This document shows positions 15,852-24,214 of a stretch of 27,238 nt of DNA, in pieces. The translations under genes and the position numbers were made by a program. The notes beneath the pieces are model-generated. The model did not search any database, was not told where the DNA came from, and saw only the letters and a list, made by a program, of their open reading frames with translations. How positions within the stretch are numbered: position 1 is the stretch's first letter; every line of letters starts with the position of its first letter. This DNA is from a virus, in the IMG/VR virus record IMGVR_UViG_3300045049_000253, positions 1 to 27,238 of that record, one strand, 5' to 3'.

Positions 15852-15976
15852 AGCCCCGCCTTCAATACAGACTGGGCTACTGGTGGTGCGGCAATCCTTC
15901 GCTGCCTAGGGCCTATTGGGCGTGCGCATTGACCCCAAAAGACGCCTTCTATCTGTGGGAGCAGTGCAATGCGTAG
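15848..15976 (+). CDS. Tiny Trp/Tyr-rich protein, 42 aa
   Basis: MKPRLQYRLGYWWCGNPSLP... is rich in aromatic residues and has three cysteines. Overlaps the upstream stop by 4 bp and ends 8 bp inside the next gene. Similar short aromatic peptides occur at nin-like positions in phages. Small but consistent with coupling; function unknown. Confidence 0.55.
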   Translation: MKPRLQYRLGYWWCGNPSLPRAYWACALTPKDAFYLWEQCNA

Positions 15977-16244
15977 GGCTGCCAAGGTGGACGCCAATCA
16001 GGACCAGATCGTGTCGGCGCTGCGAGCTGCCGGCGCGAGCGTTCAGAGCTTGGCGGCCATCGGCAAGGGGTGTCCTGACCTGTTGGCGGCTCGGGCTGGA
16101 AAGATGTTCCTGCTCGAAGTCAAGGACGGCAAAGCGGAGCCGAATGAGCTGCAGAAGCGCTGGCACATCGCCTGGAACGCGGAAGTACATGTAGTGCGCA
16201 GCCCTGACGAGGCCTTGCGCGTGGTGGGAGTGATCGCATGCTGA
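15969..16244 (+). CDS. VRR-NUC-like PD-(D/E)XK nuclease, 91 aa
   Basis: GCPDLLA (34-40, with Asp37), FLLEVKDGK (47-55, with Glu50 and Lys52) and a following helix ELQKRWHIAWN fit the PD-(D/E)XK core of VRR-NUC-type nucleases, which cut branched or structured DNA. The size matches the small phage forms. GGGAG lies 7 nt before the ATG. It sits beside an HNH-like gene in a nin-like segment, so Holliday-junction or flap processing is plausible. Confidence 0.82.
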   Translation: MRRAAKVDANQDQIVSALRAAGASVQSLAAIGKGCPDLLAARAGKMFLLEVKDGKAEPNELQKRWHIAWNAEVHVVRSPDEALRVVGVIAC

Positions 16245-16508: not shown

Positions 16509-17267
16509 ATGACAGCCTACTACAACGAGATCGATGAATGGGCGGCGGCCTTGCTTCGCGAATTGATAGCGGCCGACGAGATACCGGCTGGAGAGGTAGA
16601 CACCAGGAGCATCGAGGATGTCCGAGCAGCTGACCTTGTGGGATTCCGACAGTGTCATTTTTTCGCCGGCATTGGCGGATGGCCCCTTGCTTTCAGGCTT
16701 GCTGGAATTCCAGACGATGCTCCGGTCTGGTCAGGGTCTTGCCCCTGCCAGCCGTACTCCGTCGCTTCAGTTGCTCATGGCGGAGCGAAAGGCCAAGGCG
16801 ATAGCCGCCATTTGTGGCCGGTCTTCAGCTCTCTCATCCGCGAGCGTCAACCTTCAGGCGTCTTTGGAGAGCAGGTTGCGAGCGCGATTCAATGGGGATG
16901 GTGGGACGAGGTCTGCATGGACCTTGAGCCACAAGGCTACGCCTGTGCGGCGGCCGTATTGCGAGCTGACTCCTTCGGTGCCGTCCATCAGAGGAAAAGG
17001 CTCTACTGGGTGGCCCACGCCGGCGGCGCGGGACGGGAAGGACATCAGCCGGTCCGGCGCGTTCTTGGCGCAGCGCAAGCGGCACTCGCCAAGCATGGCA
17101 ACCCGCTTGCTAGAGCGCGGCGCGCCTTGGGCGGTGATTACAGCGATCTACTGCCTTGCGATGGGCTATCCGTCCAGATGGAACGCCTACGCACCAAAGG
17201 GTACGGGAACGCGATCGTCCCGGAAGTCGGCGCAGCGTTCATCGAATCAGTGATGGAGGCCACATGA
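16509..17267 (+). CDS. C5 cytosine DNA methyltransferase, 252 aa
   Basis: Transfers a methyl group from AdoMet to cytosine C5. Motif I FFAGIGG (51-57), motif IV GSCPCQP (76-82) with catalytic Cys80, motif VI reduced to GEQV (120-123; ENV is usual), motif VIII QRKRLYWVA (161-169) and motif X YGNAIVPEV (232-240) are present and in order. The part between VIII and X is short, so target recognition may be minimal. There is no paired restriction enzyme, so it is probably an orphan enzyme that protects phage DNA. GGAGG precedes the ATG. A second 211-aa frame lies inside it. Confidence 0.9.
   Translation: MTAYYNEIDEWAAALLRELIAADEIPAGEVDTRSIEDVRAADLVGFRQCHFFAGIGGWPLAFRLAGIPDDAPVWSGSCPCQPYSVASVAHGGAKGQGDSRHLWPVFSSLIRERQPSGVFGEQVASAIQWGWWDEVCMDLEPQGYACAAAVLRADSFGAVHQRKRLYWVAHAGGAGREGHQPVRRVLGAAQAALAKHGNPLARARRALGGDYSDLLPCDGLSVQMERLRTKGYGNAIVPEVGAAFIESVMEAT
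16618..17253 (+). CDS. Overlapping ORF nested in the methyltransferase gene, 211 aa
   Basis: It reads in another frame of the same strand, begins MSEQLTLWDSD and ends near the methyltransferase stop. AGGAG lies 8 nt before its ATG. The motif TGWPTPAARDGKD, the run SLESRLRARF and the ending LAMGYPSRWNAYAP, then SSRKS, are features I recall in phage proteins annotated beside C5 methyltransferases. Those could all be shadows of methyltransferase motifs (GWPTP lies under WVAHA), so homologue recall alone is not proof. Whether it is made is unknown. Confidence 0.5.
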   Translation: MSEQLTLWDSDSVIFSPALADGPLLSGLLEFQTMLRSGQGLAPASRTPSLQLLMAERKAKAIAAICGRSSALSSASVNLQASLESRLRARFNGDGGTRSAWTLSHKATPVRRPYCELTPSVPSIRGKGSTGWPTPAARDGKDISRSGAFLAQRKRHSPSMATRLLERGAPWAVITAIYCLAMGYPSRWNAYAPKGTGTRSSRKSAQRSSNQ

Positions 17268-17848: not shown

Positions 17849-18751
17849 ATGAAACTTACGGACGAACATGGAAATTTGAGCGTGTTCCGAATCGGCGGTC
17901 TCGCCGCAGCGGCACTTGTCAGCTTGGTGATGCTGGCGACCATCTGGCCGTTCTATAGTGTGCCAACTGGTTCGCGTGGCGTTGTAACTCAGTTCGGTGC
18001 CATCAAAGGCATCGAGAACGAGGGGCTCGTGATCCTGCCGCCCTGGCAGCGGCTAGCGATCTTCAATATCCGGGCCGAAGAGGCTAACATCGACAACGCC
18101 GAGGGCAGCACCAGCGACACACAGCCGGTCAAAGTATCCATGACGGTGCGCTACAGCATCGCAACGGACAAGGTAGCCGAGGTCTATGAGAAGTACACGC
18201 ACGACGGCAACCTATCCAGCTACGTCCAGACAGCGACGCAGGAGGTGTTCAAGGCGGTTACGGCCAAGTACACCGCGCCTGACCTGATCGCCAAACGCGC
18301 CCAGGTTTCCGGCGACATCGGCACTGCGCTGCGCGCCAAGCTGGCGATCTACGGGGCGCAGGTGATCAACATCGACATGCGCAACTTCTCCTTCAGCGAC
18401 AGCTACATGAAGGCGATCAACGATAAGGTGACGCAGGAGCAGTTGCGACTCGTGGCGGAAAACCAGCTCAAGACTGTCGAATCGCAGCAAAAGCAGAAGG
18501 TTGCGATTGCAGAGGCCGAGGCCAGCGCCGTGAAGGCGAAGGCAGACGGTGAGGCATATGCCAACCTCAAGGTCGCCCAGGCACAGGCCGAAGCTCTAAG
18601 GGTGCAGAACGCCGCACTCGCACAGAACAAGGACGTGCTGGAACTGCGCCGCATCGAAGTGGAGCTTGAAAAGGCGCACAAATGGGATGGGAGGCTGCCG
18701 GAGGCGATCTATGCCGGCGCTCCTATTCCTTTCCTGCAGGTCGGCAAGTAG
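17849..18751 (+). CDS. SPFH/Band 7 (prohibitin-like) membrane protein, 300 aa
   Basis: SPFH proteins form membrane-associated rings or scaffolds that often shield or control proteases. Residues 15-35 are one transmembrane anchor. The SPFH domain follows (PTGSRGVVTQFGAI, GLVILPPWQR, then VKVSMTVRYSI and NIDMRNFSFSDSYMKAI). A long Ala/Glu/Lys/Gln coiled coil covers about 190-280. AGGAGAG lies 5 nt before the ATG. It is separated from the early operon by 43 bp and precedes the late region. Band 7 proteins are found in some phages, but I know no proven role. Confidence 0.87.
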   Translation: MKLTDEHGNLSVFRIGGLAAAALVSLVMLATIWPFYSVPTGSRGVVTQFGAIKGIENEGLVILPPWQRLAIFNIRAEEANIDNAEGSTSDTQPVKVSMTVRYSIATDKVAEVYEKYTHDGNLSSYVQTATQEVFKAVTAKYTAPDLIAKRAQVSGDIGTALRAKLAIYGAQVINIDMRNFSFSDSYMKAINDKVTQEQLRLVAENQLKTVESQQKQKVAIAEAEASAVKAKADGEAYANLKVAQAQAEALRVQNAALAQNKDVLELRRIEVELEKAHKWDGRLPEAIYAGAPIPFLQVGK

Positions 18752-22141: not shown

Positions 22142-24214
22142 ATGGCCAAGAAAAGCCTCATCGAAGAAGTCCGCAGCTTCATGCAGTTGTGCATTGATGC
22201 TGAAGGGACCAATCGTGCGGCTGCGCAAGAGGACATCCGTTTCTCGTCTCTTGCAGAGCAATGGCCGGCGCAAATCCGCATGCAGCGGGATTTAGATCGT
22301 CGTCCGTGCCTGACCATCAACAAGACGGATACGTTCGTCCGTTCGGTGGTCAACAACATGCGCCAGCAACGACCCAGGATCAAGGTTCATCCTGTGTCTG
22401 GTGGAGCGCAGAAGGCCGTGGCAGACGTGATTCAGGGATTGACCCGTCACATCGAGGTGTCGAGCAATGCGGATGCTGCTTACGACACGGGAGCGGACTA
22501 CCAGGTTCGTATGGGATGGGGCTATTGGCGTATCGATCCCAAGTACGTCGATGAGATGAGTTGGGATCAGGAGTTGTGCATCAACCGGGTTCGCAATCCG
22601 TTCTCTGTGTACTTCGACCCATCCAGTGTCGAACCTGACGGGCTGGATGCAACTCGTGTCGCGGTGACGTACATCATGCGCAAGGAGGACTTCGAGGCGA
22701 AGTATCCGCGCAAGAAGGTGACAAGCTGGAACCTCACGGGTCCGGGCGATGACATTCCGACCAAGGATGAAATCCTGCTGGTGGAGTACCAGCGGATCGA
22801 AGAGAAGCCAGAAGACCTGATTCAGCTGTCGGATGGTAGTTCTGTGTGGGCCTCGGACTTCGACAAGGAAGAAGCCGAGGCTCGTGGCCTGATTGAGATC
22901 GATCGCCGCAGGTCGGTGAAGCGCCAGTTGAAGCAGTCCCTGCTCTCTGGGTCTGATGAACTCGAAAGCCGCGATCTCCCCGGGAAATACATCCGCGTCA
23001 TCCCCGTGTTTGGGGGGGAAGTCATCGACTCGGGCAAGGTGATTCGCTACGGGATGGTGCGCCATCTCAAAGACCCGCAGAGGATGTACAACTTCTGGCG
23101 AACTCAAGAGACTGAGTTTGTCGCGCTGGCGCCGAAAGCTCCGTGGCTCATGGCCGAAGGGCAGGATGAAGGGCATGAGGATGAGTGGAACCAGGCGAAC
23201 ACGAAGAACTATTCGAGCCTGAAGTACAAACCCGTTGTGGGGCCCGACGGTAATACGCCGCTTCCACCTCCGCAGCGGATGGAGCCGCAGGCCATCCCCG
23301 CCGCATCGGTCAACGCTGCTCAGATGGCCAGCGAAGACTTGAAGGCTGTGGCAGGGATGTTCGATCCTGCTCTAGGTGCGCCGGGTCAGGAAACGTCCGG
23401 CTTGATGGTCCAGCGCCGACAGCAGCAATCGGACCTCTCAAACTTCCACTTCTACGACAACTACACCCGCTCCATTCGAGCTACGGGCGTGGTGATCCTC
23501 GATTTGATCCCGCACTACTACGACACCCAACGGGTGGTGCGGATCATCGGTGAGGACGGGATGCCGGATTCGGTCACGATCAATGAACGGGCTGTCGGCA
23601 AGGTCTTGAACGACGTGACGGTGGGCAGGTATGACGTGGTGATGGACACCGGCCCGGGCTACGACACGAAACGCCTAGAGGCGCAGGAAATCCTCACGGA
23701 ACTCGCCAAAGCCTTCCCGCAGCTCATGCAGGTTGGCGGTGACTTGATCCTGAGGCAGATCGATGCGCCGGGTGTAGATGCACTGGCAGACCGTCTGGCG
23801 GCAATGATCCCCGCAGCTCAGATCGACAAAGAGCTGCCGAAGGACATGGACCCGCAGGTCAGGAAGTTCGTCGCCGGGATCATGCAGCAGCTCCAAGCAG
23901 CCAAACAGGTTGTTCAACAGCTCACGATGGAGAAGCAAGCCAAGGTCTTCGGCATCGAACAGAAGGAACACGCGGTCACCGAGCGCGAAATGCTTAAGGA
24001 AGACGCCGAGACACAACGTCTGCACACGAGAGAGGCGGCCGAGACGCATCGCGAACTCTTACGCCTGCATGCTGACGAATCGATGAACACGCAGGACAAC
24101 CACACCAGCCTGACTGAGACAGTCATGACGCTGGAAACAAACAAAGAGCTGGGCCGAATGAAGGCCCAGCAGCACGGGGTGCCGAACAACAACCGACCCA
24201 CGAATCAGAAATAG
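22142..24214 (+). CDS. P22-like portal protein, 690 aa
   Basis: The portal ring at the unique capsid vertex through which DNA passes. The N-terminal part shows the P22-portal pattern: EDIRFSSLAEQWPAQIRMQRDLDRR, PCLTINKTDTFVRSVVNNMRQQRPRIKV, then GYWRIDPKYV and NPFSVYFDPSS. The C-terminal third is a long alpha-helical barrel-like region rich in Gln/Glu. The length is close to P22 gp1 (725 aa). Begins right after the terminase stop. P22-like portals usually accompany short-tailed phages. Confidence 0.92.
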   Translation: MAKKSLIEEVRSFMQLCIDAEGTNRAAAQEDIRFSSLAEQWPAQIRMQRDLDRRPCLTINKTDTFVRSVVNNMRQQRPRIKVHPVSGGAQKAVADVIQGLTRHIEVSSNADAAYDTGADYQVRMGWGYWRIDPKYVDEMSWDQELCINRVRNPFSVYFDPSSVEPDGLDATRVAVTYIMRKEDFEAKYPRKKVTSWNLTGPGDDIPTKDEILLVEYQRIEEKPEDLIQLSDGSSVWASDFDKEEAEARGLIEIDRRRSVKRQLKQSLLSGSDELESRDLPGKYIRVIPVFGGEVIDSGKVIRYGMVRHLKDPQRMYNFWRTQETEFVALAPKAPWLMAEGQDEGHEDEWNQANTKNYSSLKYKPVVGPDGNTPLPPPQRMEPQAIPAASVNAAQMASEDLKAVAGMFDPALGAPGQETSGLMVQRRQQQSDLSNFHFYDNYTRSIRATGVVILDLIPHYYDTQRVVRIIGEDGMPDSVTINERAVGKVLNDVTVGRYDVVMDTGPGYDTKRLEAQEILTELAKAFPQLMQVGGDLILRQIDAPGVDALADRLAAMIPAAQIDKELPKDMDPQVRKFVAGIMQQLQAAKQVVQQLTMEKQAKVFGIEQKEHAVTEREMLKEDAETQRLHTREAAETHRELLRLHADESMNTQDNHTSLTETVMTLETNKELGRMKAQQHGVPNNNRPTNQK

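Follow-up and report, generated by a model that had tools for sequence, protein, structure and literature searches.

A probable split C5-cytosine methyltransferase with overlapping subunits in phage genomes

The 27,238-base window, which comes from an IMG/VR virus record, contains a +1-frame open reading frame that lies wholly inside the open reading frame of a C5-cytosine methyltransferase, as seen in the ORF translations. We consider it quite likely that the locus codes for a split C5-cytosine methyltransferase with overlapping subunits, in which the nested product (beta) completes the product of the methyltransferase frame (alpha). Both halves of the enzyme appear to be encoded by a single DNA stretch. 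Translation of beta, an alpha-beta complex, methylation, a target site and a biological role are inferred. The original prediction described a 211-codon ORF nested in the methyltransferase gene, with several characteristic motifs and an ATG preceded at 8 nt by AGGAG; all of these are present (Table 1).

According to the proposed scheme, frame 0 (alpha) would provide the catalytic large domain, with SAM binding, Cys80 and motifs VI, VIII and X, while beta would start in the +1 frame from an internal ATG that has a ribosome-binding site of its own. Beta would contribute the small domain, consisting of a TRD-like region from GWPTPxxRD onwards and of motif IX (MGYPxxW). Alpha and beta would then assemble into one active, sequence-specific methyltransferase, which may methylate the DNA of the phage itself, presumably as protection from host restriction.

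Table 1. Coordinates of the methyltransferase locus features in the window
Feature	Position	Strand	Basis
Alpha, C5-cytosine methyltransferase frame (frame 0), 252 aa	16509..17267	+	PF00145, phrog_363
Beta, nested +1-frame gene, 211 aa, ATG start, GWPTPAARD and MGYPSRW motifs	16618..17253	+	Open frame, conservation, synonymous constraint, phrog_1008
AGGAG, Shine-Dalgarno-like (SD), for beta; within alpha Arg-Ser codons	16605..16609	+	8 nt before ATG
Beta ATG start, from GAT codon of alpha Asp	16618..16620	+	GAT enrichment
Alpha motif I, FAGIGG	16662..16679	+	Translation; near-invariant alignment columns
Alpha motif IV, GSCPCQPYS, catalytic Cys80	16734..16760	+	P79 and C80 invariant
Alpha motif VI, GEQV (canonical ENV)	16866..16877	+	E121 and Q122 invariant
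Alpha motif VIII, QRKRLYWVA	16989..17015	+	R162 and R164 invariant
Beta GWPTPAARD motif, opens the TRD-like part	17008..17034	+	W132, T134 and P135 at least 90% conserved
Beta motif IX-like stretch, AVITAIYCLAMGYPSRWNAYA	17131..17193	+	Aligns to HhaI 273-295, KLHPRECARVMGYPDSY
Alpha motif X, GYGNAIVP	17199..17222	+	Translation; G233, N234, A235 and I236 conserved

Products of the two reading frames

Alpha has the C5-methyltransferase hallmarks of motif I (FxGxG), IV (PCQ), VI, VIII (QxRxR) and X, and its catalytic cysteine as well as the motif VI and VIII residues are invariant in an alignment with 58 relatives. It matches phrog_363 at 2e-63, and its match to PF00145 covers only positions 58-162 of the 324 in the profile. 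Alignment to canonical C5 methyltransferases with hhalign extends over HhaI 7-172 and, weakly, over 264-319 (the motif X end); neither motif IX nor a recognisable TRD was found in alpha with Pfam or with hhalign to the canonical enzymes. In the AlphaFold2 model of alpha the large domain is confident and resembles that of HhaI, and a Foldseek search matched the model to HhaI, HaeIII and DNMT1. Residues 171-230 are modelled with low confidence, and they correspond to the stretch where the nested frame dominates (see below).

An hhalign comparison pairs the N-terminus of alpha (aa 3-18, 16515-16562), AYYNEIDEWAAALLRE, with HhaI motif II, VYSNEWDKYAQEVYEM (P 0.0028). This motif II-like stretch lies upstream of motif I, and the alpha type of methyltransferase looks locally permuted, with motif II ahead of motif I.

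The second product, taken at first to be unknown, turned out to be partly known: it is present in PHROGs, and its C-terminal half resembles the TRD-motif IX part of C5 methyltransferases. Beta of the window matches phrog_1008 (labelled 'DNA methyltransferase') at 1.3e-8; this profile is matched by 21 of 21 beta relatives and phrog_31772 by 18 of them. Near-invariant residues of beta are W103, W132-T134-P135, M182-G183-P185 and W188; of these, W188 is invariant, and M182, G183 and P185 reach at least 90% conservation. The GWPTPAARD motif of beta shares its DNA with the end of alpha motif VIII.

When the beta-family profile, built with the window as query, was compared with canonical C5 methyltransferases, the best local match was motif IX (P 0.005-0.012), with HhaI 273-295 aligned at P 0.009-0.012. 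The family also aligned to the C-terminal parts of single-chain and split actinophage methyltransferases with an hhalign E of 2.1e-9, against 0.35 or worse for reversed or column-shuffled controls. Used alone, beta of the window clade, a small clade, gives only weak matches to canonical motif IX or to the actinophage domain (P about 0.1); its link to this domain runs through its family relatives, which it matches at 1.7e-45. Judging by these profile comparisons, the C-terminal half of beta, with a short putative TRD of about 50 residues, shows homology to the TRD-motif IX portion of C5 methyltransferases, and beta is most likely the DNA-recognition half that is missing from alpha's enzyme.

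An unlikely alternative is that beta, although a real nested gene, has another role (e.g., as a regulator, an anti-restriction protein or a moron) and does not complete the methyltransferase. The N-terminal part of beta has no counterpart in HhaI, and phage nested genes often encode unrelated products. In addition, a Foldseek search with the AlphaFold2 model of beta alone, itself poor (pLDDT 65), found no structural match. A PDB profile search with beta returned nothing up to E 10. Against such a role, beta has exactly what alpha is missing, it never occurs without alpha in the fetched loci, and the same domain is read in frame in single-chain methyltransferases.

Predicted initiation of beta and selection on the nested frame

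As judged by codon choice in alpha, the nested ATG is protected beyond alpha's needs. The alpha Asp codon that creates this ATG is GAT in 123 of 150 loci (82%) compared to 38% at other Asp codons (Fisher p 3e-27), and at the alpha Arg from which the SD is formed AGG is used in 46 of 150 loci (31%) compared to 7% elsewhere, both counts ignoring the kinship of the loci. This retention of ATG and SD codons argues for internal initiation rather than +1 ribosomal frameshifting from alpha as the source of beta. The latter would be consistent with the +1 frame being open through motifs I-VIII and with the five of 150 relatives that have no start codon near the expected site, but the product of such a shift would lack motif X, and we regard frameshifting as quite improbable. 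Because motif X lies in frame 0, a +1 frameshift cannot give the full enzyme and two polypeptides would be required; a programmed frameshift as the sole mechanism was rejected for the same reason.

The openness of the +1 frame was compared to that of shuffled genes, in which synonymous codons were permuted within the methyltransferase so that protein and codon usage were kept. Only two of 300 shuffles of the window methyltransferase match its real +1 open stretch of 217 codons, while the +2 frame is ordinary in the same test. A +1 stretch as long as the real one was reached by none of the 300 shuffles in epsilon15, K1G, Klebsiella S9a, Edwardsiella eiAU and Paenibacillus Diva, the last of these having a locus GC of just 0.43. 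Among 31 non-identical loci retrieved with the methyltransferase alone, p was at or below 0.05 for the +1 stretch in 27 and for the +2 stretch in one. A shuffle score based on the profile likewise favoured +1; its +2 control, however, was raised too (above shuffles by z 2.8-7.2 in seven of eight loci), and no conclusion is based on this score alone.

Divergence of synonymous sites shows purifying selection on beta. In a comparison based on 30 non-overlapping pairs of relatives, with figures taken from the pairs with controls, four-fold divergence was 0.141 in the overlap and 0.288 in neighbour genes, at equal amino-acid divergence (0.18). Within the window clade (11 loci), four-fold sites differ by 0.68 in alpha codons 1-36, which lie outside the overlap, 0.61 in codons 37-100, 0.35 in codons 101-163, 0.16 in codons 164-226 (motif VIII to X) and 0.42 around motif X. 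In codons 164-226 it is position 1 that varies most (0.41 vs 0.16 and 0.17, the value for position 3 being 0.17). Position 1 of alpha codons is the wobble position of the +1 frame, and the nested frame can therefore be considered dominant in this segment. A similar profile was obtained for the whole family (23 pairs), with four-fold divergence of 0.49, 0.38, 0.20, 0.14 and 0.32 in successive alpha segments: the highest value belongs to the part upstream of the overlap and the lowest to the part between the nested motifs GWPTP and MGYPxxW, where codon position 1 is again more variable than position 3.

Low synonymous variation, along with preservation of start, SD and stop in relatives, had been named beforehand as the mark of a real overprinted gene, and the relatives display all of these in addition to +1 openness. 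The expectation that both frames are under selection holds overall and needs refinement in detail: beta is weakly selected in the first ~60 residues, and selection on it peaks downstream of motif VIII, the region in which alpha becomes the passenger frame. It is very improbable that the +1 frame is open and conserved-looking only as a by-product of the alpha protein and GC-rich codon usage. In favour of this view, some portions of the beta motifs do follow from alpha WVAD(A/T) and related stretches, two single-chain actinophage methyltransferases also have TWPxxG...LPTP in +1, and the profile shuffle test alone is not frame-specific. Against it, openness reaches significance in +1 but not in +2, four-fold sites are suppressed with position 1 more variable than position 3 in the VIII-X segment, and low-GC examples exist. 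The suggestion that the second frame might be a side effect of GC-rich DNA was discarded on the same evidence of shuffle openness and synonymous constraint.

Distribution, related systems and possible origin of the overlap

A beta relative is found in the same +1 frame in 38 of 39 phage loci that were retrieved by alpha only; in the lone exception (L040) the beta match is in frame 0, apparently due to an indel. Beta is in the +1 frame of alpha in 222 of 223 loci carrying both, a set partly chosen by beta. With tblastn, at least 195 phage records match a longer beta relative. Open +1 frames of the family span about 215-425 codons, and one of 569 codons extends beyond the alpha gene. The pair in the window, originally thought to be unusually long, is thus of ordinary length for its family.

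The expectation that similar proteins are annotated separately in other phages proved correct for K1G (ORF30 'Mte8-like' in ORF31), Xanthomonas phage PhiXhv-28 and Paenibacillus phage Diva, where both frames are annotated and the nested one of Diva is called 'g49 internal gene'. Other phage records annotate just one of the two frames. WPTP proteins were also considered as stand-alone genes elsewhere, and this was rejected: the motif lay in the +1 frame of a methyltransferase in nearly all records examined, the exceptions being single-chain and AquI-like actinophage forms. No paper on the nested phage methyltransferase pair was found in the literature searched. The nested pair is widespread and poorly recognised, and it would explain hundreds of phage entries ('DNA methyltransferase' or 'hypothetical') that disagree on the reading frame. 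phrog_1008 and phrog_31772 do contain the nested frame, yet their label is silent on a second frame or subunit.

The closest parallel in gene arrangement is M.EcoHK31I: Lee, Kam and Shaw reportedly described in 1995 that its beta gene, like that of the phages, lies within the alpha gene and is read in a different frame. M.EcoHK31I is a heterodimeric C5 methyltransferase (YGGCCR) that needs two polypeptides, of which the larger carries motifs I-VIII and X and the smaller motif IX (PMC3404938). Phage alpha likewise has motifs I-VIII and X without IX, and the beta-family profile places motif IX in the smaller beta. The two systems, compared by described architecture, differ in that the TRD of M.EcoHK31I is predicted in the larger subunit while the TRD-like part of the phage pair is in beta, and in that M.EcoHK31I is a bacterial restriction-modification enzyme and not a phage one. 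M.AquI is split after motif VIII, and its smaller subunit contains the distal variable region and motif IX (PMC3404938). That subunit also has motif X, which in the phage pair stays in alpha (GYGNAIVP, frame 0), and the phage beta gene is wholly nested; it is actinophage pairs such as Renna12 gp41/gp42 that resemble M.AquI. The ShiLan domain is an out-of-frame HNH endonuclease in a phage methylase (PMC11855218). Here, too, the methylase gene gives a second product from another frame, but this product is an inserted homing endonuclease, whereas beta runs through the enzyme's own conserved motifs and has no HNH.

In actinophages the beta-like LPTP...MGxPxGW part is read in frame and occurs in two arrangements. 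It either belongs to one chain together with motifs I-VIII and X (Mycobacterium phage WillSterrel gp71, Babsiella gp54) or forms the second gene of an AquI-like pair (Renna12, Miramae, Commander, Lilbooboo). Arthrobacter phage MidnightRain gp84 (L245:660-2114) represents a third arrangement, with motifs IX and X in frame with I-VIII and repeated LPTP modules in +1 between them. Babsiella gp54 (L249:130-1977) is a single-chain methyltransferase with many in-frame LPTP repeats, and an annotated ORF nested in it, gp55 (L249:668-976), is named 'DNA methylase domain protein'.

If the locus does code for a split enzyme, many single-gene phage methyltransferase annotations describe half an enzyme, and cloning of the annotated frame with other codons would destroy the second subunit. 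If confirmed, the family would constitute a large natural collection of overlapping genes whose dominant frame switches between segments, as well as a route from a split enzyme to gene overlap. We tentatively suggest, with somewhat less than even confidence, that the overlap arose from a split single-chain phage methyltransferase and not by overprinting de novo. The reading frame would have shifted after motif VIII and returned before motif X, leaving the TRD with motif IX in +1, to be rescued by an internal start, and alpha between these points would have become a passenger; the single-chain, AquI-like, mixed and nested forms would then represent stages of a single series. Evolution may also have run the other way, with a nested pair fusing into a single chain.

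The window itself is a P22-portal-type tailed phage or prophage fragment, according to the P22-type portal protein encoded at 22142-24214 (PF16510, 7.5e-169). A small Holliday-junction-resolvase-like protein (phrog_5702, Hjc-like) is encoded upstream of the methyltransferase at 15969-16244. Just downstream, at 17849-18751, lies the gene for a 300-residue SPFH/Band 7 protein (PF01145, 2e-28; phrog_200), an unusual neighbour for a phage methyltransferase.
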